Shown here one piece after another: positions 6,001-61,081 of a stretch of 64,000 bases of DNA. A program made the translations under genes and the position numbers. Position 1 is the first letter of the stretch. Each line of letters opens with the position of its first letter. Origin of the DNA: Membranipora membranacea (lineage: Eukaryota > Bryozoa > Gymnolaemata > Cheilostomatida > Membraniporidae); assembly GCA_914767715.1 (NCBI GenBank), contig OU612065.1, positions 23,064,001-23,128,000 on the forward strand, in the 5' to 3' direction. Below the pieces are notes generated by a model. The model ran no database searches and was not told where the DNA came from. It was given only the letters and a program-made list of their open reading frames with translations.

Positions 6001-9000
6001 TGGGTATCACGCTTTTTTTTCGCTCGGATCAAAAAATAGATTTGCTTTTAACTCACCTCATGAGGAGGAGCAACTCCTGCTTATCTCGAATCTGCAAACC
6101 GTTTGGCTCTGTGGCTTTTCATTCTCCGTCAGCGCCCGTTTTAATTAGGGTCACTTTTGCTAAAAAACAACATGCCATACGCCACCGTTCAAAAATAAAA
6201 ACTCTGTCGAATCTTTATCAAACTCCGACCAGTTCAAGCTCTTATCGGCCTTACTCTAAATCCAGAATATTGGAATCATCGGGTTAATAGGGGAGTAATT
6301 AAGCTGACTTTAAATTTGCAAAGTTATACCAAGGGTGGGTATCACGCTTTTTTTTTCGCTCGGATCAAAAAATAGATTTGCTTTTAACTCACCTCATGAG
6401 GAGGAGCAACTCCCGCTTATCTCGAATCTGCAAACCGTTTGGCTCTGTGGCTTTTCATTCTCCGTCAGCGCCCGTTTTAATTAGGGTCACTTTTGCTAAA
6501 AAAAAACATGCCATACGCCACCGTTCAAAAATAAAAACTCTGTCGAATCTTTATCAAACTCCGACCAGTTCAAGCTCTTATCGGCCTTACTCTAAATCCA
6601 GAATATTGGAATCATCGGGTTAATAGGGGAGTAATTAAGCTGACTTTAAATTTGCAAAGTTATACCAAGGGTGGGTATCACGCTTTTTTTTCGCTCGGAT
6701 CAAAAAATAGATTTGCTTTTAACTCACATCATGAGGAGGAGCAACTCCTGCTTATCTCGAATCTGCAAACCGTTTGGCTCTGTGGCTTTTCATTCTCCGT
6801 CAGCGCCCGTTTTAATTAGGGTCACTTTTGCTAAAAAAAAACATGCCATACGCCACCGTTCAAAAATAAAAACTCTGTCGAATCTTTATCAAACTCCGAC
6901 CAGTTCAAGCTCTTATCGGCCTTACTCTAAATCCAGAATATTGGAATCATCGGGTTAATAGGGGGGGTAATTAAGCTGACTTTAAATTTGCAAAATTATA
7001 CCAAGGGTGGGTATCACGCTTTTTTTTCGCCCGGATCAAAAAATAGATTTGCTTTTAACTCACCTCATGAGGAGGAGCAACTCCTGCTTATCTCGAATCT
7101 GCAAACCGTTTGGCTCTGTGGCTTTTCATTCTCCGTCAGCGCCCGTTTTAATTAGGGTCACTTTTGCTAAAAAAAAACATGCCATACGCCACCGTTCAAA
7201 AATAAAAACTCTGTCGAATCTTTATCAAACTCCGACCAGTTCAAGCTCTTATCGGCCTTACTCTAAATCCAGAATATTGGAATCATCGGGTTAATAGGGG
7301 GGTAATTAAGCTGACTTTAAATTTGCAACATTATACCAAGGGTGGGTATCACGCTTTTTCTTCGCTCGGATCAAAAAATAGATTTGCTTTTAACTCACCT
7401 CATGAGGAGGAGCAACTCCTGCTTATCTCGAATCTGCAAACCGTTTGGCTCTGTGGCTTTTCATTCTCCGTCAGCGCCCGTTTTAATAAGGGTCACTTTT
7501 GCTAAAAAAAAACATGCCATACGCCACCGTTCAAAAATAAAAACTCTGTCGAATCTTTATCAAACTCCGACCAGTTCAAGCTCTTATCGGCCTTACTCTA
7601 AATCCAGAATATTGGAATCATCGGGTTAATAGGGGGGTAATTAAGCTGACTTTAAATTTGCAAAATTATACCAAGGGTGGGTATCACGCTTTTTTTTCGC
7701 TCGGATCAAAAAATAGATTTGATTTTAACTCACCTCATGAGGAGGAGCAACTCCTGCTTATCTCGAATCTGCAAACCGTTTGGCTCTGTGGCTCTTCATT
7801 CTCCGTCAGCGCCCGTTTTAATTAGGGTCACTTTTGCTAAAAAAAACATGCCATACGCCACCGTTCAAAAATAAAAACTCTGTCGAATCTTTATCAAACT
7901 CCGACCAGTTCAAGCTCTTATCGGCCTTACTCTAAGTCCAGAATATTGGAATCATCGGGTTAATAGGGGGGGTAATTAAGCTGACTTTAAATTTGCAAAG
8001 TTATACCAAGGGTGGGTATCACGCTTTTTTTTCGCTCGGATCAAAAAATAGATTTGCTTTTAACTCACATCATGAGGAGGAGCAACTCCTGCTTATCTCG
8101 AATCTGCAAACCGTTTGGCTCTGTGGCTTTTCATTCTCCGTCAGCGCCCGTTTTAATTAGGGTCACTTTTGCTAAAAAAAAACATGCCATACGCCACCGT
8201 TCAAAAATGAAAACTCTGTCGAATCTTTATCAAACTCCGACCAGTTCAAGCTCTTATCGGCCTTACTCTAAATCCAGAATATTGGAATCATCGGGTTAAT
8301 AGGGGGGTAATTAAGCTGACTTTAAATTTGCAAAATTATACCAAGGGTGGGTATCACGCTTTTTTTTCGCTCGGATCAAAAAATAGATTTGCTTTTAACT
8401 CACCTCATGAGGAGGAGCAACTCCTGCTTATCTCGAATCTGCAAACCGTTTGGCTCTGTGGCTTTTCATTCTCCGTCAGCGCCCGTTTTAATTAGGGTCA
8501 CTTTTGCTAAAAACAAACATGCCATACGCCACCGTTCAAAAATAAAAACTCTGTCGAATCTTTATCAAACTCCGACCAGTTCAAGCTCTTATCGGCCTTA
8601 CTCTAAATCCAGAATATTGGAATCATCGGGTTAATAGGGGAGTAATTAAGCTGACTTTAAATTTGCAAAGTTATACCAAGGGTGGGTATCACGCTTTTTT
8701 TTCGCTCGGATCAAAAAATAGATTTGCTTTTAACTCACCTCATGAGGAGGAGCAACTCCCGCTTATCTCGAATCTGCAAACCGTTTGGCTCTGTGGCTTT
8801 TCATTCTCCGTCAGCGCCCGTTTTAATTAGGGTCACTTTTGCTAAAAAAAAACATGCCATACGCCACCGTTCAAAAATAAAAACTCTGTCGAATCTTTAT
8901 CAAACTCCGACCAGTTCAAGCTCTTATCGGCCTTACTCTAAATCCAGAATATTGGAATCATCGGGTTAATAGGGGGGTAATTAAGCTGACTTTAAATTTG

Positions 9001-12000
9001 CAAAATTATACCAAGGGTGGGTATCACGCTTTTTCTTCGCTCGGATCAAAAAATAGATTTGCTTTTAACTCACCTCATGAGGAGGAGCAACTCCTGCTTA
9101 TCTCGAATCTGCAAACCGTTTGGCTCTGTGGCTTTTCATTCTCCGTCAGCGCCCGTTTTAATTAGGGTCACTTTTGCTAAAAAAAAACATGCCATACGCC
9201 ACCGTTCAAAAATAAAAACTCTGTCGAATCTTTATCAAACTCCGACCAGTTCAAGCTCTTATCGGCCTTACTCTAAATCCAGAATATTGGAATCATCGGG
9301 TTAATAGGGGAGTAATTAAGCTGACTTTAAATTTGCAAAATTATACCAAGGGTGGGTATCACGCTTTTTTTTCGCTCGGATCAAAAAATAGATTTGATTT
9401 TAACTCACCTCATGAGGAGGAGCAACTCCTGCTTATCTCGAATCTGCAAACCGTTTGGCTCTGTGGCTTTTCATTCTCCGTCAGCGCCCGTTTTAATTAG
9501 GGTCACTTTTGCTAAAAAAAAACATGCCATACGCCACCGTTCAAAAATAAAAACTCTGTCGAATCTTTATCAAACTCCGACCAGTTCAAGCTCTTATCGG
9601 CCTTACTCTAAATCCAGAATATTGGAATCATCGGGTTAATAGGGGGGTAATTAAGCTGACTTTAAATTTGCAAAATTATACCAAGGGTGGGTATCACGCT
9701 TTTTCTTCGCTCGGATCAAAAAATAGATTTGCTTTTAACTCACCTCATGAGGAGGAGCAACTCCTGCTTATCTCGAATCTGCAAACCGTTTGGCTCTGTG
9801 GCTTTTCATTCTCCGTCAGCGCCCGTTTTAATTAGGGTCACTTTTGCTAAAAAAAAACATGCCATACGCCACCGTTCAAAAATAAAAACTCTGTCGAATC
9901 TTTATCAAACTCCGACCAGTTCAAGCTCTTATCGGCCTTACTCTAAATCCAGAATATTGGAATCATCGGGTTAATAGGGGAGTAATTAAGCTGACTTTAA
10001 ATTTGCAAAGTTATACCAAGGGTGGGTATCACGCTTTTTTTTCGCTCGGATCAAAAAATAGATTTGCTTTTAACTCACCTCATGAGGAGGAGCAACTCCC
10101 GCTTATCTCGAATCTGCAAACCGTTTGGCTCTGTGGCTTTTCATTCTCCGTCAGCGCCCGTTTTAATTAGGGTCACTTTTGCTAAAAAAAAACATGCCAT
10201 ACGCCACCGTTCAAAAATAAAAACTCTGTCGAATCTTTATCAAACTCCGACCAGTTCAAGCTCTTATCGGCCTTACTCTAAATCCAGAATATTGGAATCA
10301 TCGGGTTAATAGGGGGGTAATTAAGCTGACTTTAAATTTGCAAAATTATACCAAGGGTGGGTATCACGCTTTTTCTTCGCTCGGATCAAAAAATAGATTT
10401 GCTTTTAACTCACCTCATGAGGAGGAGCAACTCCTGCTTATCTCGAATCTGCAAACCGTTTGGCTCTGTGGCTTTTCATTCTCCGTCAGCGCCCGTTTTA
10501 ATTAGGGTCACTTTTGCTAAAAAAAAACATGCCATACGCCACCGTTCAAAAATAAAAACTCTGTCGAATCTTTATCAAACTCCGACCAGTTCAAGCTCTT
10601 ATCGGCCTTACTCTAAATCCAGAATATTGGAATCATCGGGTTAATAGGGGAGTAATTAAGCTGACTTTAAATTTGCAAAATTATACCAAGGGTGGGTATC
10701 ACGCTTTTTTTTCGCTCGGATCAAAAAATAGATTTGATTTTAACTCACCTCATGAGGAGGAGCAACTCCTGCTTATCTCGAATCTGCAAACCGTTTGGCT
10801 CTGTGGCTTTTCATTCTCCGTCAGCGCCCGTTTTAATTAGGGTCACTTTTGCTAAAAAAAAACATGCCATACGCCACCGTTCAAAAATAAAAACTCTGTC
10901 GAATCTTTATCAAACTCCGACCAGTTCAAGCTCTTATCGGCCTTACTCTAAATCCAGAATATTGGAATCATCGGGTTAATAGGGGGGTAATTAAGCTGAC
11001 TTTAAATTTGCAAAATTATACCAAGGGTGGGTATCACGCTTTTTCTTCGCTCGGATCAAAAAATAGATTTGCTTTTAACTCACCTCATGAGGAGGAGCAA
11101 CTCCTGCTTATCTCGAATCTGCAAACCGTTTGGCTCTGTGGCTTTTCATTCTCCGTCAGCGCCCGTTTTAATTAGGGTCACTTTTGCTAAAAAAAAACAT
11201 GCCATACGCCACCGTTCAAAAATAAAAACTCTGTCGAATCTTTATCAAACTCCGACCAGTTCAAGCTCTTATCGGCCTTACTCTAAATCCAGAATATTGG
11301 AATCATCGGGTTAATAGGGGAGTAATTAAGCTGACTTTAAATTTGCAAAGTTATACCAAGGGTGGGTATCACGCTTTTTTTTCGCTCGGATCAAAAAATA
11401 GATTTGCTTTTAACTCACCTCATGAGGAGGAGCAACTCCCGCTTATCTCGAATCTGCAAACCGTTTGGCTCTGTGGCTTTTCATTCTCCGTCAGCGCCCG
11501 TTTTAATTAGGGTCACTTTTGCTAAAAAAAAACATGCCATACGCCACCGTTCAAAAATAAAAACTCTGTCGAATCTTTATCAAACTCCGACCAGTTCAAG
11601 CTCTTATCGGCCTTACTCTAAATCCAGAATATTGGAATCATCGGGTTAATAGGGGGGTAATTAAGCTGACTTTAAATTTGCAAAATTATACCAAGGGTGG
11701 GTATCACGCTTTTTCTTCGCTCGGATCAAAAAATAGATTTGCTTTTAACTCACCTCATGAGGAGGAGCAACTCCTGCTTATCTCGAATCTGCAAACCGTT
11801 TGGCTCTGTGGCTTTTCATTCTCCGTCAGCGCCCGTTTTAATTAGGGTCACTTTTGCTAAAAAAAAACATGCCATACGCCACCGTTCAAAAATAAAAACT
11901 CTGTCGAATCTTTATCAAACTCCGACCAGTTCAAGCTCTTATCGGCCTTACTCTAAATCCAGAATATTGGAATCATCGGGTTAATAGGGGAGTAATTAAG

Positions 12001-15000
12001 CTGACTTTAAATTTGCAAAATTATACCAAGGGTGGGTATCACGCTTTTTCTTCGCTCGGATCAAAAAATAGATTTGATTTTAACTCACCTCATGAGGAGG
12101 AGCAACTCCTGCTTATCTCGAATCTGCAAACCGTTTGGCTCTGTGGCTTTTCATTCTCCGTCAGCGCCCGTTTTAATTAGGGTCACTTTTGCTAAAAAAA
12201 AACATGCCATACGCCACCGTTCAAAAATAAAAACTCTGTCGAATCTTTATCAAACTCCGACCAGTTCAAGCTCTTATCGGCCTTACTCTAAATCCAGAAT
12301 ATTGGAATCATCGGGTTAATAGGGGGGTAATTAAGCTGACTTTAAATTTGCAAAATTATACCAAGGGTGGGTATCACGCTTTTTCTTCGCTCGGATCAAA
12401 AAATAGATTTGCTTTTAACTCACCTCATGAGGAGGAGCAACTCCTGCTTATCTCGAATCTGCAAACCGTTTGGCTCTGTGGCTTTTCATTCTCCGTCAGC
12501 GCCCGTTTTAATTAGGGTCACTTTTGCTAAAAAAAAACATGCCATACGCCACCGTTCAAAAATAAAAACTCTGTCGAATCTTTATCAAACTCCGACCAGT
12601 TCAAGCTCTTATCGGCCTTACTCTAAATCCAGAATATTGGAATCATCGGGTTAATAGGGGAGTAATTAAGCTGACTTTAAATTTGCAAAGTTATACCAAG
12701 GGTGGGTATCACGCTTTTTTTTCGCTCGGATCAAAAAATAGATTTGCTTTTAACTCACCTCATGAGGAGGAGCAACTCCCGCTTATCTCGAATCTGCAAA
12801 CCGTTTGGCTCTGTGGCTTTTCATTCTCCGTCAGCGCCCGTTTTAATTAGGGTCACTTTTGCTAAAAAAAAACATGCCATACGCCACCGTTCAAAAATAA
12901 AAACTCTGTCGAATCTTTATCAAACTCCGACCAGTTCAAGCTCTTATCGGCCTTACTCTAAATCCAGAATATTGGAATCATCGGGTTAATAGGGGGGTAA
13001 TTAAGCTGACTTTAAATTTGCAAAATTATACCAAGGGTGGGTATCACGCTTTTTCTTCGCTCGGATCAAAAAATAGATTTGCTTTTAACTCACCTCATGA
13101 GGAGGAGCAACTCCTGCTTATCTCGAATCTGCAAACCGTTTGGCTCTGTGGCTTTTCATTCTCCGTCAGCGCCCGTTTTAATTAGGGTCACTTTTGCTAA
13201 AAAAAAACATGCCATACGCCACCGTTCAAAAATAAAAACTCTGTCGAATCTTTATCAAACTCCGACCAGTTCAAGCTCTTATCGGCCTTACTCTAAATCC
13301 AGAATATTGGAATCATCGGGTTAATAGGGGGGTAATTAAGCTGACTTTAAATTTGCAAAATTATACCAAGGGTGGGTATCACGCTTTTTTTTCGCTCGGA
13401 TCAAAAAATAGATTTGATTTTAACTCACCTCATGAGGAGGAGCAACTCCTGCTTATCTCGAATCTGCAAACCGTTTGGCTCTGTGGCTTTTCATTCTCCG
13501 TCAGCGCCCGTTTTAATTAGGGTCACTTTTGCTAAAAAAAAACATGCCATACGCCACCGTTCAAAAATAAAAACTCTGTCGAATCTTTATCAAACTCCGA
13601 CCAGTTCAAGCTCTTATCGGCCTTACTCTAAATCCAGAATATTGGAATCATCGGGTTAATAGGGGGGTAATTAAGCTGACTTTAAATTTGCAAAATTATA
13701 CCAAGGGTGGGTATCACGCTTTTTCTTCGCTCGGATCAAAAAATAGATTTGCTTTTAACTCACCTCATGAGGAGGAGCAACTCCTGCTTATCTCGAATCT
13801 GCAAACCGTTTGGCTCTGTGGCTTTTCATTCTCCGTCAGCGCCCGTTTTAATTAGGGTCACTTTTGCTAAAAAAAAACATGCCATACGCCACCGTTCAAA
13901 AATAAAAACTCTGTCGAATCTTTATCAAACTCCGACCAGTTCAAGCTCTTATCGGCCTTACTCTAAATCCAGAATATTGGAATCATCGGGTTAATAGGGG
14001 AGTAATTAAGCTGACTTTAAATTTGCAAAGTTATACCAAGGGTGGGTATCACGCTTTTTTTTCGCTCGGATCAAAAAATAGATTTGCTTTTAACTCACCT
14101 CATGAGGAGGAGCAACTCCCGCTTATCTCGAATCTGCAAACCGTTTGGCTCTGTGGCTTTTCATTCTCCGTCAGCGCCCGTTTTAATTAGGGTCACTTTT
14201 GCTAAAAAAAAACATGCCATACGCCACCGTTCAAAAATAAAAACTCTGTCGAATCTTTATCAAACTCCGACCAGTTCAAGCTCTTATCGGCCTTACTCTA
14301 AATCCAGAATATTGGAATCATCGGGTTAATAGGGGGGTAATTAAGCTGACTTTAAATTTGCAAAATTATACCAAGGGTGGGTATCACGCTTTTTCTTCGC
14401 TCGGATCAAAAAATAGATTTGCTTTTAACTCACCTCATGAGGAGGAGCAACTCCTGCTTATCTCGAATCTGCAAACCGTTTGGCTCTGTGGCTTTTCATT
14501 CTCCGTCAGCGCCCGTTTTAATTAGGGTCACTTTTGCTAAAAAAAAACATGCCATACGCCACCGTTCAAAAATAAAAACTCTGTCGAATCTTTATCAAAC
14601 TCCGACCAGTTCAAGCTCTTATCGGCCTTACTCTAAATCCAGAATATTGGAATCATCGGGTTAATAGGGGAGTAATTAAGCTGACTTTAAATTTGCAAAA
14701 TTATACCAAGGGTGGGTATCACGCTTTTTTTTCGCTCGGATCAAAAAATAGATTTGATTTTAACTCACCTCATGAGGAGGAGCAACTCCTGCTTATCTCG
14801 AATCTGCAAACCGTTTGGCTCTGTGGCTTTTCATTCTCCGTCAGCGCCCGTTTTAATTAGGGTCACTTTTGCTAAAAAAAAACATGCCATACGCCACCGT
14901 TCAAAAATAAAAACTCTGTCGAATCTTTATCAAACTCCGACCAGTTCAAGCTCTTATCGGCCTTACTCTAAATCCAGAATATTGGAATCATCGGGTTAAT

Positions 15001-18000
15001 AGGGGGGTAATTAAGCTGACTTTAAATTTGCAAAATTATACCAAGGGTGGGTATCACGCTTTTTCTTCGCTCGGATCAAAAAATAGATTTGCTTTTAACT
15101 CACCTCATGAGGAGGAGCAACTCCTGCTTATCTCGAATCTGCAAACCGTTTGGCTCTGTGGCTTTTCATTCTCCGTCAGCGCCCGTTTTAATTAGGGTCA
15201 CTTTTGCTAAAAAAAAACATGCCATACGCCACCGTTCAAAAATAAAAACTCTGTCGAATCTTTATCAAACTCCGACCAGTTCAAGCTCTTATCGGCCTTA
15301 CTCTAAATCCAGAATATTGGAATCATCGGGTTAATAGGGGAGTAATTAAGCTGACTTTAAATTTGCAAAGTTATACCAAGGGTGGGTATCACGCTTTTTT
15401 TTCGCTCGGATCAAAAAATAGATTTGCTTTTAACTCACCTCATGAGGAGGAGCAACTCCCGCTTATCTCGAATCTGCAAACCGTTTGGCTCTGTGGCTTT
15501 TCATTCTCCGTCAGCGCCCGTTTTAATTAGGGTCACTTTTGCTAAAAAAAAACATGCCATACGCCACCGTTCAAAAATAAAAACTCTGTCGAATCTTTAT
15601 CAAACTCCGACCAGTTCAAGCTCTTATCGGCCTTACTCTAAATCCAGAATATTGGAATCATCGGGTTAATAGGGGGGTAATTAAGCTGACTTTAAATTTG
15701 CAAAATTATACCAAGGGTGGGTATCACGCTTTTTCTTCGCTCGGATCAAAAAATAGATTTGCTTTTAACTCACCTCATGAGGAGGAGCAACTCCTGCTTA
15801 TCTCGAATCTGCAAACCGTTTGGCTCTGTGGCTTTTCATTCTCCGTCAGCGCCCGTTTTAATTAGGGTCACTTTTGCTAAAAAAAAACATGCCATACGCC
15901 ACCGTTCAAAAATAAAAACTCTGTCGAATCTTTATCAAACTCCGACCAGTTCAAGCTCTTATCGGCCTTACTCTAAATCCAGAATATTGGAATCATCGGG
16001 TTAATAGGGGAGTAATTAAGCTGACTTTAAATTTGCAAAATTATACCAAGGGTGGGTATCACGCTTTTTTTTCGCTCGGATCAAAAAATAGATTTGATTT
16101 TAACTCACCTCATGAGGAGGAGCAACTCCTGCTTATCTCGAATCTGCAAACCGTTTGGCTCTGTGGCTTTTCATTCTCCGTCAGCGCCCGTTTTAATTAG
16201 GGTCACTTTTGCTAAAAAAAAACATGCCATACGCCACCGTTCAAAAATAAAAACTCTGTCGAATCTTTATCAAACTCCGACCAGTTCAAGCTCTTATCGG
16301 CCTTACTCTAAATCCAGAATATTGGAATCATCGGGTTAATAGGGGGGTAATTAAGCTGACTTTAAATTTGCAAAATTATACCAAGGGTGGGTATCACGCT
16401 TTTTCTTCGCTCGGATCAAAAAATAGATTTGCTTTTAACTCACCTCATGAGGAGGAGCAACTCCTGCTTATCTCGAATCTGCAAACCGTTTGGCTCTGTG
16501 GCTTTTCATTCTCCGTCAGCGCCCGTTTTAATTAGGGTCACTTTTGCTAAAAAAAAACATGCCATACGCCACCGTTCAAAAATAAAAACTCTGTCGAATC
16601 TTTATCAAACTCCGACCAGTTCAAGCTCTTATCGGCCTTACTCTAAATCCAGAATATTGGAATCATCGGGTTAATAGGGGAGTAATTAAGCTGACTTTAA
16701 ATTTGCAAAGTTATACCAAGGGTGGGTATCACGCTTTTTTTTCGCTCGGATCAAAAAATAGATTTGCTTTTAACTCACCTCATGAGGAGGAGCAACTCCC
16801 GCTTATCTCGAATCTGCAAACCGTTTGGCTCTGTGGCTTTTCATTCTCCGTCAGCGCCCGTTTTAATTAGGGTCACTTTTGCTAAAAAAAAACATGCCAT
16901 ACGCCACCGTTCAAAAATAAAAACTCTGTCGAATCTTTATCAAACTCCGACCAGTTCAAGCTCTTATCGGCCTTACTCTAAATCCAGAATATTGGAATCA
17001 TCGGGTTAATAGGGGGGTAATTAAGCTGACTTTAAATTTGCAAAATTATACCAAGGGTGGGTATCACGCTTTTTCTTCGCTCGGATCAAAAAATAGATTT
17101 GCTTTTAACTCACCTCATGAGGAGGAGCAACTCCTGCTTATCTCGAATCTGCAAACCGTTTGGCTCTGTGGCTTTTCATTCTCCGTCAGCGCCCGTTTTA
17201 ATTAGGGTCACTTTTGCTAAAAAAAAACATGCCATACGCCACCGTTCAAAAATAAAAACTCTGTCGAATCTTTATCAAACTCCGACCAGTTCAAGCTCTT
17301 ATCGGCCTTACTCTAAATCCAGAATATTGGAATCATCGGGTTAATAGGGGAGTAATTAAGCTGACTTTAAATTTGCAAAATTATACCAAGGGTGGGTATC
17401 ACGCTTTTTTTTCGCTCGGATCAAAAAATAGATTTGATTTTAACTCACCTCATGAGGAGGAGCAACTCCTGCTTATCTCGAATCTGCAAACCGTTTGGCT
17501 CTGTGGCTTTTCATTCTCCGTCAGCGCCCGTTTTAATTAGGGTCACTTTTGCTAAAAAAAAACATGCCATACGCCACCGTTCAAAAATAAAAACTCTGTC
17601 GAATCTTTATCAAACTCCGACCAGTTCAAGCTCTTATCGGCCTTACTCTAAATCCAGAATATTGGAATCATCGGGTTAATAGGGGGGTAATTAAGCTGAC
17701 TTTAAATTTGCAAAATTATACCAAGGGTGGGTATCACGCTTTTTCTTCGCTCGGATCAAAAAATAGATTTGCTTTTAACTCACCTCATGAGGAGGAGCAA
17801 CTCCTGCTTATCTCGAATCTGCAAACCGTTTGGCTCTGTGGCTTTTCATTCTCCGTCAGCGCCCGTTTTAATTAGGGTCACTTTTGCTAAAAAAAAACAT
17901 GCCATACGCCACCGTTCAAAAATAAAAACTCTGTCGAATCTTTATCAAACTCCGACCAGTTCAAGCTCTTATCGGCCTTACTCTAAATCCAGAATATTGG

Positions 18001-19429
18001 AATCATCGGGTTAATAGGGGAGTAATTAAGCTGACTTTAAATTTGCAAAGTTATACCAAGGGTGGGTATCACGCTTTTTTTTCGCTCGGATCAAAAAATA
18101 GATTTGCTTTTAACTCACCTCATGAGGAGGAGCAACTCCCGCTTATCTCGAATCTGCAAACCGTTTGGCTCTGTGGCTTTTCATTCTCCGTCAGCGCCCG
18201 TTTTAATTAGGGTCACTTTTGCTAAAAAAAAACATGCCATACGCCACCGTTCAAAAATAAAAACTCTGTCGAATCTTTATCAAACTCCGACCAGTTCAAG
18301 CTCTTATCGGCCTTACTCTAAATCCAGAATATTGGAATCATCGGGTTAATAGGGGGGTAATTAAGCTGACTTTAAATTTGCAAAATTATACCAAGGGTGG
18401 GTATCACGCTTTTTCTTCGCTCGGATCAAAAAATAGATTTGCTTTTAACTCACCTCATGAGGAGGAGCAACTCCTGCTTATCTCGAATCTGCAAACCGTT
18501 TGGCTCTGTGGCTTTTCATTCTCCGTCAGCGCCCGTTTTAATTAGGGTCACTTTTGCTAAAAAAAAACATGCCATACGCCACCGTTCAAAAATAAAAACT
18601 CTGTCGAATCTTTATCAAACTCCGACCAGTTCAAGCTCTTATCGGCCTTACTCTAAATCCAGAATATTGGAATCATCGGGTTAATAGGGGAGTAATTAAG
18701 CTGACTTTAAATTTGCAAAATTATACCAAGGGTGGGTATCACGCTTTTTTTTCGCTCGGATCAAAAAATAGATTTGATTTTAACTCACCTCATGAGGAGG
18801 AGCAACTCCTGCTTATCTCGAATCTGCAAACCGTTTGGCTCTGTGGCTTTTCATTCTCCGTCAGCGCCCGTTTTAATTAGGGTCACTTTTGCTAAAAAAA
18901 AACATGCCATACGCCACCGTTCAAAAATAAAAACTCTGTCGAATCTTTATCAAACTCCGACCAGTTCAAGCTCTTATCGGCCTTACTCTAAATCCAGAAT
19001 ATTGGAATCATCGGGTTAATAGGGGGGTAATTAAGCTGACTTTAAATTTGCAAAATTATACCAAGGGTGGGTATCACGCTTTTTCTTCGCTCGGATCAAA
19101 AAATAGATTTGCTTTTAACTCACCTCATGAGGAGGAGCAACTCCTGCTTATCTCGAATCTGCAAACCGTTTGGCTCTGTGGCTTTTCATTCTCCGTCAGC
19201 GCCCGTTTTAATTAGGGTCACTTTTGCTAAAAAAAAACATGCCATACGCCACCGTTCAAAAATAAAAACTCTGTCGAATCTTTATCAAACTCCGACCAGT
19301 TCAAGCTCTTATCGGCCTTACTCTAAATCCAGAATATTGGAATCATCGGGTTAATAGGGGAGTAATTAAGCTGACTTTAAATTTGCAAAGTTATACCAAG
19401 GGTGGGTATCACGCTTTTTTTTCGCTCGG
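1..19429. repeat. 335-bp satellite array with four-monomer higher-order repeat
   Basis: A head-to-tail array of a 335-bp unit. Taking GTGGGTATCACGC as the phase mark, complete monomers start at 304 and then every 335 bp to 19067, 57 in all, with part-monomers at both ends. Monomers fall into classes set by a few fixed differences: A has CTCCCGCTT; C has TTTGATTTTAAC; B and D have CTTTTTCTTCGC and differ in AAATTATACC or AAAGTTATACC at the 3' boundary. From 8682 to 19401 the order A-B-C-D repeats eight times, a 1340-bp higher-order repeat. A 95-codon open frame recurs in nearly every unit but starts at GTG, and 335 is not a multiple of three, so no long protein is possible. The array runs off the left edge. 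Centromeric or heterochromatic origin is inferred. Confidence 0.97.
4994..8681. repeat. Irregular block inside the satellite array
   Basis: Eleven monomers that break the A-B-C-D order. They carry private variants: ACTCACATCATG at 4994, 6671 and 8012; CGCCCGGATC at 5330 and 7007; AATAAGGGTCAC at 5665 and 7342. Single-base length changes are also seen (336-bp units at 4994 and 6671; a longer T run near 6350; two A bases missing near 7845). The trio at 4994, 5330 and 5665 recurs in the same order five monomers later at 6671, 7007 and 7342, which indicates a nested duplication of about 1.68 kb. Regular A-B-C-D order exists on both sides. Confidence 0.85.
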
Positions 19430-19457
19430 ATTACCTCCGACCAGTTCAAGCTCTTAG
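19430..19457. repeat. Rearranged satellite fragment at the array boundary
   Basis: The last monomer stops after CGCTCGGA. It is followed directly by a short piece (CTCCGACCAGTTCAAGC plus flanking bases) that normally lies about 190 bp further along the monomer. The array therefore ends in an internally deleted monomer, after which no satellite sequence is seen. Confidence 0.8.
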
Positions 19458-19747: not shown

Positions 19748-19832
19748 TGACCTTGATGGGATTCGAACCCACAACCATCTTATTGACAGTAATCATTAGG
19801 CAGACGCTCTACACACTGAGCTATTCAGCCAC
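19748..19832 (-). mobile_element. tRNA-derived SINE or tRNA pseudogene
   Basis: On the minus strand the segment has an A-box-like TAGCTCAGTGTGTAGAGCG and a B-box GGGTTCGAATCCC, the internal RNA polymerase III promoter of tRNA genes, in the right order and at about tRNA spacing. The T-arm pairs well (GTGGG with CCCAT), but the acceptor ends pair poorly and the anticodon arm holds extra bases, so it is not a functional tRNA. A T run follows on the minus strand, as in a pol III terminator. A tRNA-derived SINE head is the best reading. Confidence 0.6.
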
Positions 19833-50771: not shown

Positions 50772-53700
50772 ATGTCAACAAGGCGTTCAACAAGAACAAC
50801 TGTGGTTACTTCAACAGTGTAAGTTCCTAACTAAGCATATTATCTATCAATCCTATAAGAGAAACACCAGAAACAGTGGAGTGTTATAGTTAGTAAGTAT
50901 GTAGTCATAATTAATCAAAGAAGAAGAACAATAGACTAGTTATTTATAGAATGGATTGAATGACTCCATTCATCAATATAGTCATGATTTAATGATGTTG
51001 GCAATCAACTCAACTGTAGTAAGCCGTAAGTAAGCTACACCAACTGTTTCTGTAAGAAGGGAGGAAGGTGACAGTCACAAGACAAGTTATTACTATTAGG
51101 TACAAGGACTGAGTAAAAAAGAGGATCATTTAATAAATGTCAATCAGTCATATTAATCTGCAGTTGAATTGTTTCCTTATATTGCAGTAATCCATCAACT
51201 GAAGTGACTATCGACTTTGCTCTTCTGAGAGATGATGATTTTGAGAAGTAAGTCTTATTTTGGCGAGAAGTGGATCAATTGTTTTATGTAGGTGTATGGG
51301 TTTTTCAAAGTCATGAGAGATATTTAGACACATTGTCAATGGTTTGGGCTGTTTACATGGCAGCCTAACATCGATGATTGGCTGCAAACGAGTCTTTACG
51401 CAAGCCAAACTGGCAAAGGGGCCTACACAATAAGACATGCTAAAAATCTTAGCTTTAGCTCCGCATTAAAATCATGGACATTTGTTATTCGTCAAAGCAT
51501 GAGCAGTTCATGTATTGCCTCAGATCTACTATTTCTTCATGATCATATGCATGAAGGTAGAAATGGCAATAACGGCTGCATGGGGCTATGCTAAATGAAT
51601 TTATGTTCCCTGTTACTAGTACTCAAATTTGCACTCTTCAAGTCCTACTTGAATGTATGTGATTGGTTTTGTTCCAGAAGGCCAAAGACTGATTACACGT
51701 ATTCACGAAGGTAAGGCCCTGGCTTAGCTCCAGTGGCACGGTGTGGTGACTTCTAATATTATAATATACTTAGCTTGACTAATACCATCTCTATAAGATA
51801 CAATAAACATTTCACATTCATTGTATCCACAAAATTCTTGCACGCTTCATGACTGATTGGATTAGGTGTTTGTGATAGCATCAGCGACGCATTTCTATCA
51901 TTTGGGTATATAGTATATTTTCAATGTATCATTTCTCCCTATCGGTGCTTTACCTGTGTATAAGTTCTAGCAAACCTTCATTCATGTTGTGTACCATTTT
52001 GATGCTACCAAGAGTCGCGGCTAGCACAAGAAGTTGTAAGACATTGCAATGTTGGTGGTTTTCATATAAAATACAGGTGTCAATGTGGTATCATTCCTGC
52101 ATCAGATTGGAATTATTTGTGGTATAGCGGAGTCAAAGTACAAAAGTACTGTGCATGCAACGAGTCTAAATCCTTTGTCCGCTCATAATTCCTGTATGCG
52201 TCACTAGCTAGATCCAAGCAAGGAGATCCTAGCCACCCGCATTCATTTGTTTTGAACTCTTGACACAAGATGACAGTGCCCTTGGTTGGCATAAATGTGT
52301 CTGGGAAAGAAGCTGTTCAAAGGTGCTTAGTAGGAGCAAGCTACCCTCATGGAATATCCTGCATTCCATTTGCATGGACATCACAGTCGTTATTGTGATA
52401 TTTCAGTCCTCATTCATGCTGTTTCTGTAGCATTTCATTTCAGGTAGCAGCATATTCCATCCTTCGTATCCTCATCCCACATTAGTAGAACTAGACTTTT
52501 CATTGTTTTTTTAATTCATGTAACGCTCTATACATCCTAGCATAGTTTGTTTGTTTTAACACATTGCTGCAGACTATTATTTGTGCCCTAACATAAAACT
52601 GCGCTCTAGCTTGAGCTAAGCCCATTTATTTTCCATATAATACATTGCATTATATTTTGTTTGATTGCTGCTGTGTGTTGTTTGCTAAGATTGATACTTT
52701 TGTTTGCAGTGCTACATACTCTTCTAAGTATGTAGACGGGAAGGTAATCAGTCCTAACTTGTCTCGACGCAGACTGTACACTGACGAAATGCTCCGCGAT
52801 CAGCAGGCATCTAGGTTTGTACTGACTAACACCAGTAGTTCATTTTGTGGTGTTGTATCCTTTTTATGTAATATTTAATGTACTATTGTGTAATTAATCT
52901 GCTTAGCTTGTGGCAAACATATTTATAGCCTGTCTGAATTACCTACTAGACATAACAGCTTTGTCAATTCCTGTATATTGATGTTTCACCTGCTCTAAAA
53001 TTTAGAGTGAGTTTGTCACAACCCCATGTCTACAATCAATGACTAGTATTTATAATCTTTGCTATGTCAAACGCAATGGGCCTTTCATATTTTTGGTCAT
53101 TTGACAAGAAGGTGCAACTTTCTTTGTGATAGATGTGTCTGTATGCTTTGTACTTATTCATCCATTAGCATTATACCTGGCTACAGATGATCCAGTTGAT
53201 TATGGGATAATAAGGTTCATCTAAGTCTGTAATTAGCGTTACTTCACGCCTCACATCAGTCATACAAGATTAGGTGTCCGCTGAATGATCTGTTGATTAA
53301 CAAAACAGCCCACACAACAAAAATGCACAGGTCACTGGTTGCATATGATTGGATTGAGCAGGACCATTAATTCCGGCAGTTATTTTCTCACTTTCCAGTA
53401 CAAGTACTCAAGATAGATGTGAACTCAGCCCAAAGAGAAATTCCTTGCTTAGAATATGATTCTCCTCGTATTTCAATAGGTCCAACTAACAAGTAAATGG
53501 AAAATGATTATTATTATATCTTTTGTCAGTTCCTTGATGAGGCAGCAACAGCAAAAGGCCTCTACAGGGGTGAAGACAGCATCCTCACATGTCCGTGTGT
53601 ACGGAGGTCGCAGTACACGTAGCAGCCTCCTAGCAGCAAACAACCAGTCTTCATATAACTCAACTAATTTTTCATCAAACAATGTTAACAATAACTCTAC

Positions 53701-56700
53701 TGCCGCTGCCGAAGCAGCTCTGAATGGAAGCTATGTTGCTGCTAACTCATCATCATATAGTAGAAATGCTCTCAACTCATATAGTGGCAATGCTGCCAAC
53801 TCATACAGTAGAAATGATGCCGACAGCAGTAATATGCAGTCACGAGTCAGGGAGAACGTTGTACAACATACAGTGTATACTACTAGAAACAGTAATCAGA
53901 CCTCCAACAATACAGACACAAGCTCAACAATGCATCAACAAAACAATAATAACAGCGGTGAGTAACACTTATGTATGATATACAATGGGAGGATGCACTG
54001 AGTCACAAGTAGTAAGCAGCAAGTAATCATTGATAACATCTTAATTGATTCAGAGTCATATTTTGCATGGTGTGTGTATGTTGCACTGCAACACCTGCCA
54101 TAGTAAAAAACTGGTAAGAATGTTATGAATACCTCTCTATACTTTATAAAAGATGTAGAATCGAAGTGTTCACTGTAATTGAAGGTGATAGGACTTTGAT
54201 ACTCTCAGTCTCTAGATAGAATGAAAACAAGTTACTATGCTAAAGGTCTATCACTTGTTCTATAGCTTTGTACTTATGATTTCAGAGGCAATTTTCTCAG
54301 AGGATGAAGCAGACTCGAGTATAATGGGCCGCGGTTCTACCACTAAGCGTAAAACAACAAGGCGGGCCAGTAGCCGGTCCCGCTCACCTGGTCGTAATGT
54401 AAGAGGAGCTGGATCTACTCGTAAACGCTCCGGTAAGCTTCAGGATGATGACTCAGAGTATAGCTTAGAGTCAGCAGTCGGAAGCGGTGGCAGCAGAAAG
54501 TCAGCGAGTTATGCTCTGTCGACTGGGCTCGATAGTGATACAGGTATGTTTTGTATGATTTTCTGGCACTTGGTGAAGTTTGAAGTAATAGTTATCATTG
54601 CAGTGACCATAAATGTACACACTTTCTGCGTTGTGAGTCTCTGTCTGAGGTGTTGGATCTAGATATTGTAAGGTTAATCCTTTATAGTAAGGTCCCATAC
54701 CCTGCAATTCTTATAACTGTCAAAATTTCACTTTTCAATTCTTGCTTATCAAATAATGTTATTGGCTTCAGAGGAGAATAGCCTGGTGCGGTTAACCAAT
54801 CAAAACACCAGATATAACGCTGAGAGGCAGCAGGCCAAATTTGATGCCGAAGGTAATAAAAGTCGTCACCTTCATGATACTTTGATGACACTGGATCATG
54901 ATATCATTTGCTTATTTCTATCACATTATGAAATAATGCTTGAAGCATCAATACATCAGCTTCTAACCTGCTAAGTGAGCTCCTATCTTTTACATATTCA
55001 CAGTAATTGCATGAGATTGATGTGAATGTACCCATGCATAGCATGAGTGGAATCTACCACATGTGTGAGTCGAGCTGAAGATGAGCATGTATCTCGTTGT
55101 CAATTGTTGAATGTGAATAAGGCTCTTGCTTTGTTTGTAGATTTGGTGACAGAGAGATCAAGCACAATTATAGACACAGTAGCTACAGGGACACCAATTA
55201 CAGCCAAGATCATGGGTTGTGTCCTCTTTGTTTATGGCTGCACATGTGAGTATTACCTAGCCTTGGGTATAGTAGGTCTGTGATCACATTTTTATTGAAA
55301 TTAGGGCTTACCTATCAGATACCAATTTGCCAACCAGGCTGTATAAATAAGTGCATGAGAAGACTATGCTAGAAGTGATTACAATTTTGCACTGTCAGTT
55401 TAGAAATTTGGTAAAAGCTAATAACTAAGATATCTGGTGCAAGGAATACCAGTACCAAATAATTTAAAAGAAAGCGAACAAATAATATGTTTTAAATTAT
55501 AGTCAAAAAACAATCTTCCCTGTTCTTTCTAACTGAGGGCTGCTGTTGACGTCACTTCGTTTGTGCACTCAATGATATCAATGTGGCTGTGGTGGCCATA
55601 TCTTGAGGACAATTTTGTTGTAATGGTAGTTACAAAGTGCATCTCAGACATAATAATATTTGGAACTATAACGGATATTGATGTTTATATCGACAGGTAT
55701 ATTCATGAACAGAGTATGGTACAGTTTTGGACATCCTGTTTATGCCACATTACAAAGATATCTACTATTGGACACTTGGATCTTATCTCAAGCAGCTACT
55801 CGGAAATGTCGAGGATTGTTTCTAGGACTATTATTTCTACTTTTACCTATACTTCTATTGTTGGGAGCAGCATGCAGTATTCACGCGTTGGGCTTTGTCA
55901 ATGTGCAGTCATGCGGACCTCTCACCGGAGTGTACTATGTTTCTAAGCCGGTATGTGTTTCATGTTTTCATGAATATTATAGTTTTTTGAAAACCTACAA
56001 CCTACAACAGTTGTGTACTCTCTGAACCTTGCACTCAATGAGTGGGCAACTCCTGACAGGCAAGTAATTGTCTCTGATTACCATTTCCAAGGAGTAACAG
56101 CGAATGTTACTGTTACTCCTTGCTATTTCTAACTGACACATTATTGCTAATGTATATCGGTACAATGTTTACGACTCGATGTTGTGTTACAGTCTGATTT
56201 GAATGCGCCTGGTATAGGAGCAAACATTAAAAAGACACTTACAGAATTGTTCACATGGAGTGATACGCAGCAGGCTAAGGTTCATATCCCTGCTGACATG
56301 CCGAGATCCGAAGTAAACTGGGAATCTGTGATAGATGCTCGGATAGCTGATCTTAGATCAACCATTGATCAAAACTCAAACAAAGTGGTGAGTTTTTTTT
56401 CTATGAAATTGTACCGGACATATAACATCATTGCCAGCAATGACTATCCAGCAATGAAAATACAAGGCATAAAATTCATGATGATCAGGTGTTTGCTGTG
56501 CCCGCTTAATACCTCTTTCCTCAAAAACACCGTCTTTTGTGCACATATAACTTATTTCAGCTGTATCAGCTGTATTAGCATTAGTATCCAGTATATGGTA
56601 TTCATATTTCACTTTAGGTTTCTGAACAGAGGCAGAAGAACACAGAATTAGAGGCAGCAGTCAGCACACTGAATAGTGATCTAATCAAAGTTAATACACA

Positions 56701-59700
56701 ACTATCATCTATAACCACAATCATAAGTGATCTCAGCAACCTTAAAATAAAAGTGGCTCAGCTACAGACTGACATAGGTAATTATATATAAGCCGATATA
56801 ATTGTGGACCATCTTTGCACTCTCTCCAACCTCCACAATCATACCCTGTCATATTTTCACAGGTTTTTAAGATTTGATATTTCGCTATTTCAGAATTATT
56901 TTGATATTAATTAATCTTTATATATTTTTCCAAATTTTCCAATGATAGCTTACATAAATTGATATTTTAATCAAAATTCGCTATTATTTTAACCTCTGAA
57001 CATTTTCTTCCTGAAGGGTATTTAGAATGTATCTAGGTCATGATGAGTATCTAGAAAGTCTATTGTTATCTCTACACACACCTATTTTTAGGAAATATAC
57101 CTGATCATAGTGATGCCATATCTCAGCTGCAGAGAGATATTATAAGATTACAGACTAAGCTCGGTGAGGTGGATCTGGGAGATCAGCAGCAGCATGGAGA
57201 GGCTGGTGTACTCATGTATATCATCAACGAAATCAACAATGTGAGTGTCATCATCATAATCATTATCTTCATCATGGATACAATCATGTATCATATGACT
57301 TTTTATGGGAAGTCAAGGCAAGTTATAACTCGCTGCACAATTCGGGTGTTTGTGGCTTTTCATTATGAATCACACCTTTGCTGTGCTCGATCATGCAATG
57401 CCAGAAAATGTTGTTTGGAAATATTTGCGCCCTTCAATTCCACCTATATACTTTCTACATCAGAGTCTGCGCTTCCAGATTCTTATTAGATAAGGTTGTA
57501 CATTTGCTGTGTGAACATTTACTTTAGCTTGCCTCCATCTCCAAATACGTGCTGGGAATCACTGATGAACAGCCTAAGGTATGAAGGAATTCAATTACCA
57601 AAAGCTGTTACTGTTGAGCATAATTATTACTAACACTCTTGATTCTCATTGCGACCAGCATGTTCAACAGACTACTGATACTGTGGTTCTCTCAGTCTAT
57701 CCCTCAATGTATCCTTATTTATTTACAGCTGAAATCGTCAGTGACAAACTCTCAACAGGCAACTACCCCGACACCGATCCCGATGCCCTGCCCTGGGTCT
57801 AGCTGTGTATGTGAGAGTGACTTGGCTCTTAGACTGAGAAACCTACACGAGAAGATCATATCTGAGTTTGAATCTAAGGGTGGGTCAGGAGGAACCACAC
57901 TGTTTGTTAGCTCTGAGAACTCGACAGGTATAAGTGAACAGGTATGTAGTATACATTATACTATTGGATATGATACTTGTTTATAGCCTGCATATCTCAT
58001 GAGATGGGAGGTTACAGATATCATCAAGTCTTTTTGATCTAAGATAAACCTATCTGTCCTTGGACACAATTATGTAGTGCTGATGCCAGCGGCTCAAACT
58101 AGAACAGTATTTCATGTTTTTGTGGAACCTCATATCCCACGCATATTTTGTCATAACGATTGGAACACTTGACAACTGTCTATGAGACAGTTTTCTGAGT
58201 TCGGATTTATGCCTCAATTTGGAGTTGTCCTCCTCTCTCCAGGTTGGTACTTTTAACCCACGCCGCATAGGAAAAACATGCTGAAAGAGGGTTTTCTTGA
58301 AAACCGCTTATGTTAGGATAAAAAGGATTTTTGATTCAGAATCTGCACCATTGAAAACTGATAGGGACATAGTTTGGGAAACCCTGCGAGACAGGGTTTC
58401 CAAATCATTGGAGGCTTGAATGATGATAAATCTTAATTTTAGTGACGAAATTCAAGAAAGATTCTGCCAAATGGTCCGCAAAACTGGCAGAAATTGATAT
58501 AATTGACTAACCGGATACCAAAAATATTTCCCAAACTATGTCCCTAACAGTTTTCAATGGTGCAGATTCTGAATCAAAAATCCTTTTTATCCTACTATAA
58601 GCAGATTTCAAGATAACCCTCTTCTCAGCACGTTTTTCCTATGTGGCGTGGGTTAAAAGTACCAAACTGGAGAGAGGACAACTCCGAATAGAGGCCTAAA
58701 TCAGAGCTCAGAAAACTGTCTATAGAGTCTGATCATCTGCAATAAAATTTGCAACTTATTCAATACTACAATGTTTTTTTTAGATGGTAAGAAAGATGAT
58801 ACAGGACGAATTAGATATATTTGCAGAGGACCACACAGGCATGCCTGACTTTGCTCTTCAGTCTATGGGTATGTTTTAATATATCATCTGAAATATACCA
58901 TACATACATTGAGCAAACTATCTACCTGTTCTTTTTACAAAATCTTGACTGCTTGCTTATGCTGTATGAAGTTCATTGTTCACTGACCTTGACGCAGACA
59001 GGACGTGACCGTGAAGCCCTTCATTTCCACTCCATTTCATTTAAACACGCATGATGATATTGTATGATGATTGTATACGTTCAGGGGGACAAATAGTGAG
59101 CACAAGGAGTTCAGAGACATATTATCAAGAACACGGTATCATGACCTTCCTAGGCCTACCCTTGTACCATCTTTATAAGGATCCCCATGTTGTCATTCAG
59201 GTAATGGGCAGCATGGCTAGGGCTCATCTCTATCTATGTTGTTATATCTCAGTGACTGAACCCTCTATGGTTAGACAATCAACCGATCGTGTTATAAAAA
59301 GGGGAGACAATTCCAAAACTCTAAATAAATTGACCAAAAATCCACAAAAAAATTGATTGTCGTTATTTTATATTATGATCATACCGAGAGATAATAGTTG
59401 GTTGATTGTCTATCTTTGTCTAGCTAACCCCCCCTCGACTATTATTTGGGAAGATTCAGTACACTGAGGTTGACATGGTCGTTGTCGGTATTTTTGTTGA
59501 TTCTGGTGACGGTAACCTTAGCAATGATTCTATGACTACTATATATACAGGCGCTCAGGTGGTGAGCACTAGATGCTCACAGACCTTCTATCAGGAGACT
59601 GGTATAATGACCTTCCTAGGTCTACCTTTATACCACCTTCATAAAGAACCCAGTGTAGTCATTCAGGTAGCTATACCCGTCATGTGAATGCCGCCTTGTT

Positions 59701-61081
59701 AATGCTTGCGCTTCGGTTCACATCATGCTTATAGCTTTAGACTCCTAGTCAGTTTTCCTGTTACTGTTTCCATCAGATATATGGGTTCTGTTTTACGGGA
59801 GATTTTCAATTATTGGTCAGTTTTAGTTAAGAAATAAGTTAACTTCCTTTGCTATCTCACCCGATATTTGTTTACCTGCATAGGCACGCTTTTACGCTAT
59901 TTCGTATTATGTTGTTGTGTGTTGTACATTATAACCTGGAATAGTTAGAGCTGTGATAATGAGTGTAAGGATTAATGGATGTAATAAATTGGCCAAGGTA
60001 ACCTCCTCAGTCTGCATTAACCATATAGAATATTAGGAGTGTTAATGGCATGGTAGTTTTTTATCTATTCATGAATGGTGCAGGTAAGTGTTTCCATAGT
60101 GATTTAACACTTTCATCAACCTTGTATGTCTGGTTTACATTTCTTAGCCTGGAGTGATCCCTGGGGAGTGCTGGTGTTTCCATGGACAAGCCGGTACTTT
60201 GGTAGTAGAAATGGCTGACAATGTGAAATTCAACTCATTCTCCATAGAACACATATCTGCTAAACAGTCTGTAACAGGAGAAATCAGCAGTGCTCCAAAA
60301 GAACTAGAGATATATGTGAGTTTGTTTGTTTTATGTTTTATACCCATGGAATGACAACTGCTCCTGAGGCCTTTTGTAATATGATATTTATATGAGAGCA
60401 ACTTGGCGCCAAATATGGTGGTGGCAACTTTATTTCTCAGTATTCGAGCTGAGACAAAGACTTGTATATATAACCAATATTTTAACAAACATGTATAATC
60501 TTATACTGTATAATCTTATAAACTGTATAATCTTAGAGCATTACCATTATCAACATTAACAACACTATTTTTTTGAAGGGTCTGAATTCTGAACTAGACA
60601 CTAATGGACAGAAGCTAGGAGGTGGCGTATACGACAACAAGGGATCAAGACTCCAGTTCTTCCCTGTGGAGGTGAGTCAAGTTAATTTTCTTTCTACACA
60701 TACCCTGTCCTCTCCATAGACATTATATTATGAATATCGTATTATATATGACTATGTTGAAACCTTAGTTGACATCAGAATCATCAGAATCTTGAAAAGT
60801 CAGTTTTTTGTTGAATGCTGGTTTAGAAGCTTGGTCCTAGCATAATCACGTTACAAATCAGTCGTTTAAGCTAGGGTATTGACCATGTATTGATATTCAA
60901 TGTGGAATACCCTCCTTCTTCCTATATATATTTTATGTTAACAGCTATCAATGTTTTATTTTAGGATACATCACTACCGGCTTACCCTCTTGTGGAGCTG
61001 AGAGTTCTCAGTAACCATGGAAAGGAAGAGTTCACCTGTCTCTACAGATTCAGAGTACATGGGAAGCTGGCTCCTAAATAA
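50772..61081 (+). CDS. SUN1/SUN2-like: SUN domain protein of the inner nuclear membrane (SUN1/2-like)
   Basis: Nineteen exon positions give 905 aa with consistent phases: 50772-50818, 51188-51247, 51678-51710, 52710-52814, 53530-53957, 54286-54543, 54772-54852, 55141-55245, 55697-55950, 56193-56387, 56618-56777, 57092-57240, 57528-57578, 57729-57941, 58784-58868, 59085-59200 or 59551-59666, 60148-60315, 60579-60671, 60965-61081. Residues 1-337 are nucleoplasmic, with an Asn/Ser-rich part (about 95-200) and an Arg/Ser basic part (about 245-285). A hydrophobic stretch near 359-375 precedes the transmembrane helix at about 411-433 (GLFLGLLFLLLPILLLLGAA). Coiled coil follows (about 495-640). The SUN domain is about 735-905, ending CLYRFRVHGK. 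Cys in GECWCF and FTCLYR match the pair that closes the cation loop in human SUN2. It should trimerise and bind KASH proteins across the nuclear envelope. Confidence 0.95.
58187..58719. mobile_element. 533-bp foldback, TTTTCTGAGCTC family, in the SUN intron
   Basis: The left arm from ACAGTTTTCTGAG at 58187 through TTTGATTCAGAATCTGCACC and the following 40 bp returns inverted, ending CTCAGAAAACTGT at 58719. Arms are about 200 bp with scattered mismatches around a roughly 140-bp centre. It lies in the intron two upstream of alternative exon A. No clean target duplication is visible; CTATGAG and CTATAGAG are adjacent but differ. Confidence 0.75.
59085..59200 (+). CDS. SUN gene alternative exon A (Ser form of KASH-lid exon)
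   Basis: A 116-nt exon with TTCAG acceptor and CAG/GTAATG donor, entering at phase 1 and leaving at phase 0. It encodes the start of the SUN domain and the lid that covers a bound KASH peptide. The motif is STRSSETYYQ; the AGT codon at 59108-59110 puts Ser where SUN proteins normally have Cys. It shares 30 of 39 residues with exon B. Confidence 0.9.
59551..59666 (+). CDS. SUN gene alternative exon B (Cys form of KASH-lid exon)
   Basis: Same length and phases as exon A, with a TATACAG acceptor and CAG/GTAGCT donor. The motif is STRCSQTFYQ, with TGC at 59574-59576 giving the standard Cys. The lid core GIMTFLGLPLYHL is identical to exon A; differences lie at the edges (His/Thr, Tyr/His, Asp/Glu, His/Ser). 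If spliced after exon A it is read GCG CTC AGG TGG TGA and stops at once. Confidence 0.9.

Follow-up and report, generated by a model that had tools for sequence, protein, structure and literature searches.

The SUN1/2-type gene of the bryozoan Membranipora membranacea carries a predicted alternative exon that is tandemly duplicated, lies over the KASH lid of the SUN domain, and is constrained by the reading frame to one copy per transcript. The two copies, exons 16A and 16B, encode the same stretch of protein in different versions, and the most telling difference between them appears to be the one at the position of human SUN2 Cys563, where B encodes Cys and A encodes Ser. It is probable that the copies form a mutually exclusive pair by which the protein is switched between LINC complexes with a covalent lock and LINC complexes held non-covalently, a reading in which we infer the splicing, the decay of misjoined transcripts, the disulfide and the force. 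The weight of this disulfide in living cells is a live question for LINC complexes, and the Cys/Ser difference turns an unusual exon pair into a specific and testable claim about LINC mechanics that public RNA reads can check; reads of M. membranacea are named in the genome report as ERR6464929 (PMC10290214).

Positions given here are those of the window, the whole stretch of 64,000 nucleotides that was analysed. The gene lies on chromosome 1, on the + strand of the window between 50772 and 61081, and runs from an ATG at 50772 to a TAA at 61081 through exons 1–15, then 16A or 16B, then 17–19, encoding 904 residues (Table 1). The exons were joined by eye and verified by script, with GT-AG introns and a single open frame. 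For exon 3, one of two possible AGs was taken as the acceptor; the coding start was set at ATG 50772, and the 5′ untranslated part was left undefined. The membrane segments and the coiled coil in exons 1–15 were named by eye from their likeness to SUN proteins. A C-terminal SUN domain is present according to the PF07738 profile, against which the B protein reaches 119.2 bits and the A fragment 121.9 bits at a cut-off of 22, and this match begins at residue 771, that is, it takes in just the last 9 of the 39 residues of the alternative exon. The cysteine pair within the domain (SUN2 601/705) is also present, with both members in constant exons (PGECWCF and FTCLYRF).

Table 1. Features of the SUN1/2-type gene around the alternative exon, in window positions.
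Feature	Position	Strand	Basis
Exons 1–15, spliced: N-terminal region, membrane segments, coiled-coil region	50772..58868	+	script-checked chaining
Exon 15, constant, precedes the choice; phase 1 end (ATG G)	58784..58868	+	
Exon 16A, Ser at the SUN2 Cys563 position (STRSSETYYQEHG...), residues 741–779	59085..59200	+	
A–B intron, 350 nt, with a perfect 13-bp inverted repeat	59201..59550	+	
Exon 16B, conserved Cys (STRCSQTFYQETG...), residues 741–779	59551..59666	+	
Exon 17, constant, follows 16A or 16B; first part of the SUN beta-core; Cys equal to SUN2 Cys601 (PGECWCF)	60148..60315	+	PF07738 exon match
Exon 18, SUN beta-core	60579..60671	+	
Exon 19, end of the SUN domain; Cys equal to SUN2 Cys705 (FTCLYRFRVHG); stop TAA	60965..61081	+	

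Among the best 120 of 1392 matches to the protein, the top-ranked relatives are SUN1/2 proteins, and the two best full-length ones come from the bryozoans Watersipora subatra (P0122, 71%) and Bugula neritina (P0123, 58%). The SUN proteins of all three species share the N-terminal motif KYVDGxVISPNLSRRxLY. In the Membranipora genome itself, PF07738 at E <= 0.001 is found in the SUN1/2-type gene and at only one further locus (L003, G000:C7:3823586-3826708, 27 bits), whose exons resemble what we take to be the SUCO/mid-SUN type, and thus the gene described here may be the sole SUN1/2-type gene of this genome.

The original prediction described two neighbouring 116-nt exons with 30 of 39 residues alike, and its coordinates, lengths and residue count were reproduced. 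The two exons are adjacent in the same gene, of 116 nt each, and identical at 86 nucleotides and at 30 of 39 residues when the codon that straddles the junction with the upstream exon is counted. Both are entered in phase 1 and left in phase 0 and both have intact AG and GT splice sites, again as predicted. Local alignment of A with B scores 93, a value reached by none of 300 single-base shuffles, the maximum of which is 25. The four intron comparisons, on the other hand, score 21, 23, 17, and 21 and are matched by 65, 58, 280, and 31 of 300 shuffles, so the exons are 74% identical inside flanking introns that show no similarity above shuffles, as had been noticed by eye. The 13-residue core of the lid, GIMTFLGLPLYHL, which had been called perfectly kept, is indeed the same in A and B.

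The reading frame is what would restrict the use of the two copies. A length of 116 nt does not divide by three, and each copy is entered in phase 1 and left in phase 0; an in-frame transcript therefore contains exactly one of them. When exon 15, ending in ATGG/gtatgt at 58868, is joined through A alone or through B alone to exon 17, beginning with ttag/CCTGG at 60148, the spliced-frame check returns 904 residues and the identical stop in both cases. A joined to B reads ALRW and then a stop, which is the fifth codon of B and so agrees with the stop within five codons that had been foreseen. Skipping of both exons leads to a stop after 23 codons, 97 nt upstream of the exon 17–18 junction; here the premature stop predicted earlier stands, and its distance of about 25 codons is corrected to 23. 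By the usual rule in animals, early stops ahead of later exon junctions lead to nonsense-mediated decay. Transcripts with one copy would therefore stay in frame, and those with both or neither would be stopped early and degraded. The claim that the frame permits a single copy only is borne out by these joins, and at the DNA level the mutually exclusive reading of the pair is well supported.

As for how exclusivity would be enforced, incompatible spliceosome types and crowding are not obvious candidates, given GT-AG splice sites and an A–B intron of 350 nt. A scan for inverted repeats and a fold of the A–B intron revealed nothing exceptional in the way of an RNA-pairing device (z -1.55; 7 of 100 shuffles as good), and Rfam over the exon region gave no match above the gathering score, its single match (E 0.31) being far below. 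The acceptors of A and B each have 9 pyrimidines of 17, which is not distinctive since 3 of 17 other acceptors are equally low. Frame together with decay would be the enforcing device visible here. The A–B intron also contains a perfect 13-bp inverted repeat at 59272-59284 and 59400-59412 (TAGACAATCAACC / GGTTGATTGTCTA), which may represent a small element or form a hairpin with a part in splicing.

Purifying selection on both copies, which the original prediction had only suggested, can now be given in numbers. Between A and B there are 18.5 silent differences in 26.2 sites and 11.5 replacement differences in 90.8 sites (binomial p 1e-5). The dN between the copies is 0.14 by three methods, and the dS is 2.14 (NG86), 1.45 (LWL85), 1.33 (ML), or 0.57 at fourfold sites alone, of which 6 of 15 differ, with a resulting ratio of about 0.06 to 0.25 depending on the dS method. 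Constraint on the exon pair is thus clear under every dS estimate, and the contrast of a dN of 0.14 with a dS of 0.6–2.1 indicates that both copies have been shaped by selection. Because so few fourfold sites differ, the age of the duplication and the higher dS values are uncertain. When 30 differences were simulated on one unconstrained copy (n=20,000), the mean identity was 20 of 39 residues and the maximum 28, and not one simulation reached the observed 30. The open frame by itself is weak evidence, since 34% of the unconstrained simulations remain free of stops. Neutral change produces about 3.5 replacement changes for each silent one, which caps the neutral share of the 30 differences at about one half.

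The alternative exon can be placed on SUN domains of solved structure. HMMER aligned isoform B without gaps through the exon to the solved SUN1 and SUN2 domains (best E 1.8e-53), and isoform A likewise to the solved SUN1 domain in the one alignment shown (best E 5.6e-53). Anchored on Cys563, the exon is equal to human SUN2 555-593 and thereby contains Cys563 and the whole KASH lid, which PMC6527376 places at SUN2 567-587. The core identical in A and B is equal to SUN2 572-584, and all nine differences fall outside it, one at position 563 and the other eight at 556, 558, 565, 567, 571, 585, 587, and 589. The Cys/Ser difference at 563 had escaped the original prediction. A structure model of the Watersipora protein, built from a 13-row alignment, reached a mean pLDDT of 51 and a pTM of 0.31 with a fair beta-core; most of its lid (residues 638-670) stayed below 50, and thus the model was dropped for claims about the lid.

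Cysteine is the usual residue at the SUN2-563 position. We collected 240 homology matches, namely the best 120 from a set of 133 and the best 120 from a set of 1392, and many of these matches are isoforms of one species. Of the 240, 205 cover the position, 4 of these with a gap, and 35 do not cover it. The residue is Cys in 165 of 201 cases, Thr in 25, Asp in 5, Ser in 4, and Asn and Gly in 1 each. Within these best matches, 19 of the 25 Thr cases are named SUN3 or SUN3-like, and one of the 5 Asp cases is a termite protein named SUN2. All 13 SUN1/2-type proteins that we selected for alignment have Cys. One of the 4 Ser cases stands in an unambiguous STRS motif, namely P0002 (STRSTETY), a SUN1/2-like domain with 48% identity, so exon A is not the only natural case in which the disulfide cysteine is missing.

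According to published work on this cysteine, SUN2 Cys563 bonds Cys -23 of the KASH domain, and the bond is dispensable for binding in pulldowns and needed for maximal force transmission; in worms and fibroblasts, nuclei were no longer positioned properly when the cysteine of either SUN or KASH was mutated (PMC6527376). The cysteines of SUN2 are also reported to rearrange in LINC assembly (PMC10193101), and the mammalian germ-cell proteins SUN3–5 are described as lacking the cysteine (PMC5371868). Accounts of the disulfide in cells differ: a 2017 review gives it as undetected, another account as shown in HeLa cells, and later work links the cysteines to force transmission and assembly (PMC5371868, PMC6527376, PMC10193101).

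On this background, the choice of exon would swap the stretch that matches SUN2 555-593 and so exchange the entire KASH lid together with the cysteine in front of it. The B protein would form the SUN-KASH disulfide and bear high force, and the A protein with its Ser would still bind KASH by way of the shared lid core but lack the covalent lock, so that the nucleus would be tethered more weakly or in a way that is easier to remodel. We infer that B most likely serves as a lockable bridge and A as a releasable one. The broader proposition, that one animal gene splices its SUN protein with or without the cysteine of the covalent lock and so provides a single-gene counterpart of SUN1/2 versus SUN3–5, is put forward tentatively, at a little under even confidence. 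If true, the covalent lock would be an evolutionary setting and not a fixed part, both states being obtained from one exon choice in a colonial animal, and the two isoforms would offer a natural matched pair, in effect a cysteine-swap experiment, for LINC mechanics.

The KASH side was searched in the same genome. Exon by exon, the KASH profile PF10541 gave no match at the cut-off and two sub-threshold ones (C1, C5); a search of this kind is insensitive for a 58-residue domain, and 14 control genomes also gave none. A strict pattern for the KASH tail, which an intron-split or diverged tail would escape, had 0 matches in the genome and 1 in the reversed control. Thus neither the exon-wise profile nor the strict pattern yielded a KASH partner that carries Cys -23. 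The C5 match has a membrane stretch followed by DYYEC, but it lies amid exons that we read as a DEAD-box helicase, with no KASH-like PPP tail nearby, and the frame of the C1 match likewise ends without a PPP tail; both matches were judged to be due to chance and rejected.

A B-like version of the exon is seen in the protein records of Bugula (GAQVLSTRCSQTYYQDTG, P0123), Watersipora (GAQVVSTRCSQTYYEPHG, P0122), and a close relative, P0006 (GAQIVSTRCSHTYSQESG). As each protein record shows a single version, exon A may exist unseen in these relatives; the Watersipora SUN record is named isoform X2 and belongs to a cluster of two sequences. In P0006 the B-like exon runs directly into exon 17, with an intron-like reading on both outer sides, and either the B–17 intron was lost in this lineage, in which case this exon choice would be impossible there, or the record represents part-spliced RNA. 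Another record, P0079, is 89% identical over exon 17, with intron-like sequence before it and no exon 16 shown. A homology search with the exon A frame returned no candidates. This outcome is doubtful, given that P0006 has more than three 5-residue words in common with that frame, and we do not count it against the presence of exon A in relatives.

A tree of the 39 residues does not settle the age of the duplication. Among bryozoan-type sequences the motif IMTFLG is common to A and B only and missing from Bugula, Watersipora, and P0006, which favours a duplication on the Membranipora lineage. Exon A keeps GG and SET states that are seen in other animals, and the copies differ at 19 of 50 nt in their 5′ part and at 11 of 66 nt in the remainder; from this, an older duplication followed by partial gene conversion is possible.

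The cysteine may not be the difference on which selection acted, because the two exons are also unlike at eight further residues. The pair could be exclusive and functional while these eight residues tune KASH affinity or the choice of partner, or while the switch sets dosage through decay, and we give this account a clearly smaller chance than the covalent switch. It fits the placement of all nine differences outside the identical lid core and the outcome of the search for a KASH protein with Cys -23, and it also fits the UNC-83-type short KASH domains, described in PMC6527376 as having no Cys -23, by which the SUN cysteine would matter for some partners only. What weighs for the covalent switch is that, in the literature cited here, the cysteine is the only differing position with a published covalent role, and that all 13 SUN1/2-type proteins of our selection have it.

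It is rather unlikely that exon A is a relic or is rarely used, with B doing the work and A being hardly spliced or leading only to decay. The B-like sequences in the P0122, P0123, and P0006 records and the less common Ser of A would agree with this, and the moderate fourfold divergence leaves A less time for decay than the higher dS values imply; yet in A the frame and the phase are preserved, the two splice sites are intact and the lid core is complete, the neutral share of the 30 differences is limited to about half, and over the exon A matches Watersipora at 25 of 39 residues compared with 28 for B. An artefact of assembly or haplotype would mean that two alleles or a false duplication were set side by side, and HiFi reads of usual length would span the 582-nt doublet. 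We consider this extremely improbable because the copies are 26% apart inside dissimilar introns and the assembly is reported to be built on 66-fold HiFi reads; it is a general possibility only, in that 17 haplotypic duplications were removed during curation of the assembly (PMC10290214).

A search of open-licence papers gave no description of a mutually exclusive exon in a SUN gene, in line with the original prediction, which knew of no such KASH-lid exon in a SUN protein. Broader searches on the splicing of SUN and LINC genes showed no such exon among the titles and abstract beginnings of the matches listed, and a search for mutually exclusive exons in Bryozoa surfaced a single paper, which by its abstract deals with trout kidney disease. 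The exclusive exons of Dscam, tropomyosin, and muscle myosin resemble the present pair in being tandem homologous exons of equal length and phases, with a length that is not a multiple of three. Dscam-type clusters possess RNA-pairing devices, and tropomyosin and muscle myosin have simple two-exon pairs. In Membranipora, by contrast, the gene is a SUN gene, the SUN-KASH contact would be affected, no docking or selector pairing was found, and the use of one copy per transcript is a prediction.

The mammalian division into SUN1/SUN2 with the cysteine and SUN3–SUN5 without it involves the same position, the same cysteine loss and two SUN forms, but SUN3–SUN5 are described as separate genes with shorter coiled coils and largely germ-cell expression, whereas Membranipora would use one gene and one exon (PMC5371868). 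Human SUN1 is likewise alternatively spliced, although the variants described have lost sequence immediately before the transmembrane domain (between exons 6 and 9) and thus outside the SUN domain (PMC5371868). The same cysteine has been removed in the laboratory in unc-84(C953A) and in SUN2 cysteine mutants, where the bond is reported as dispensable for KASH binding and needed for maximal force (PMC6527376; PMC10193101). Compared with these engineered mutants, exon A looks natural and optional, has Ser and not Ala, and carries eight further changes.

Several repeats were observed elsewhere in the window. A satellite array extends from its left edge (1-19431) with 58 copies of a 335-bp unit at 98% matches, for which Rfam gave no match above the gathering score, and just past it on the minus strand (19748-19830) lies a weak tRNA-like Rfam match of 31 bits where ARAGORN reports none. 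The intron before exon 15 holds a long inverted repeat (58185-58721) whose arms, about 200 nt long and divided into three blocks, are 90–94% complementary, and this repeat looks like a foldback or MITE-type element. In coding exon 5, a 24-bp tandem repeat of 2.9 copies (53753-53821) encodes a repeated Ser/Tyr/Asn-rich stretch.
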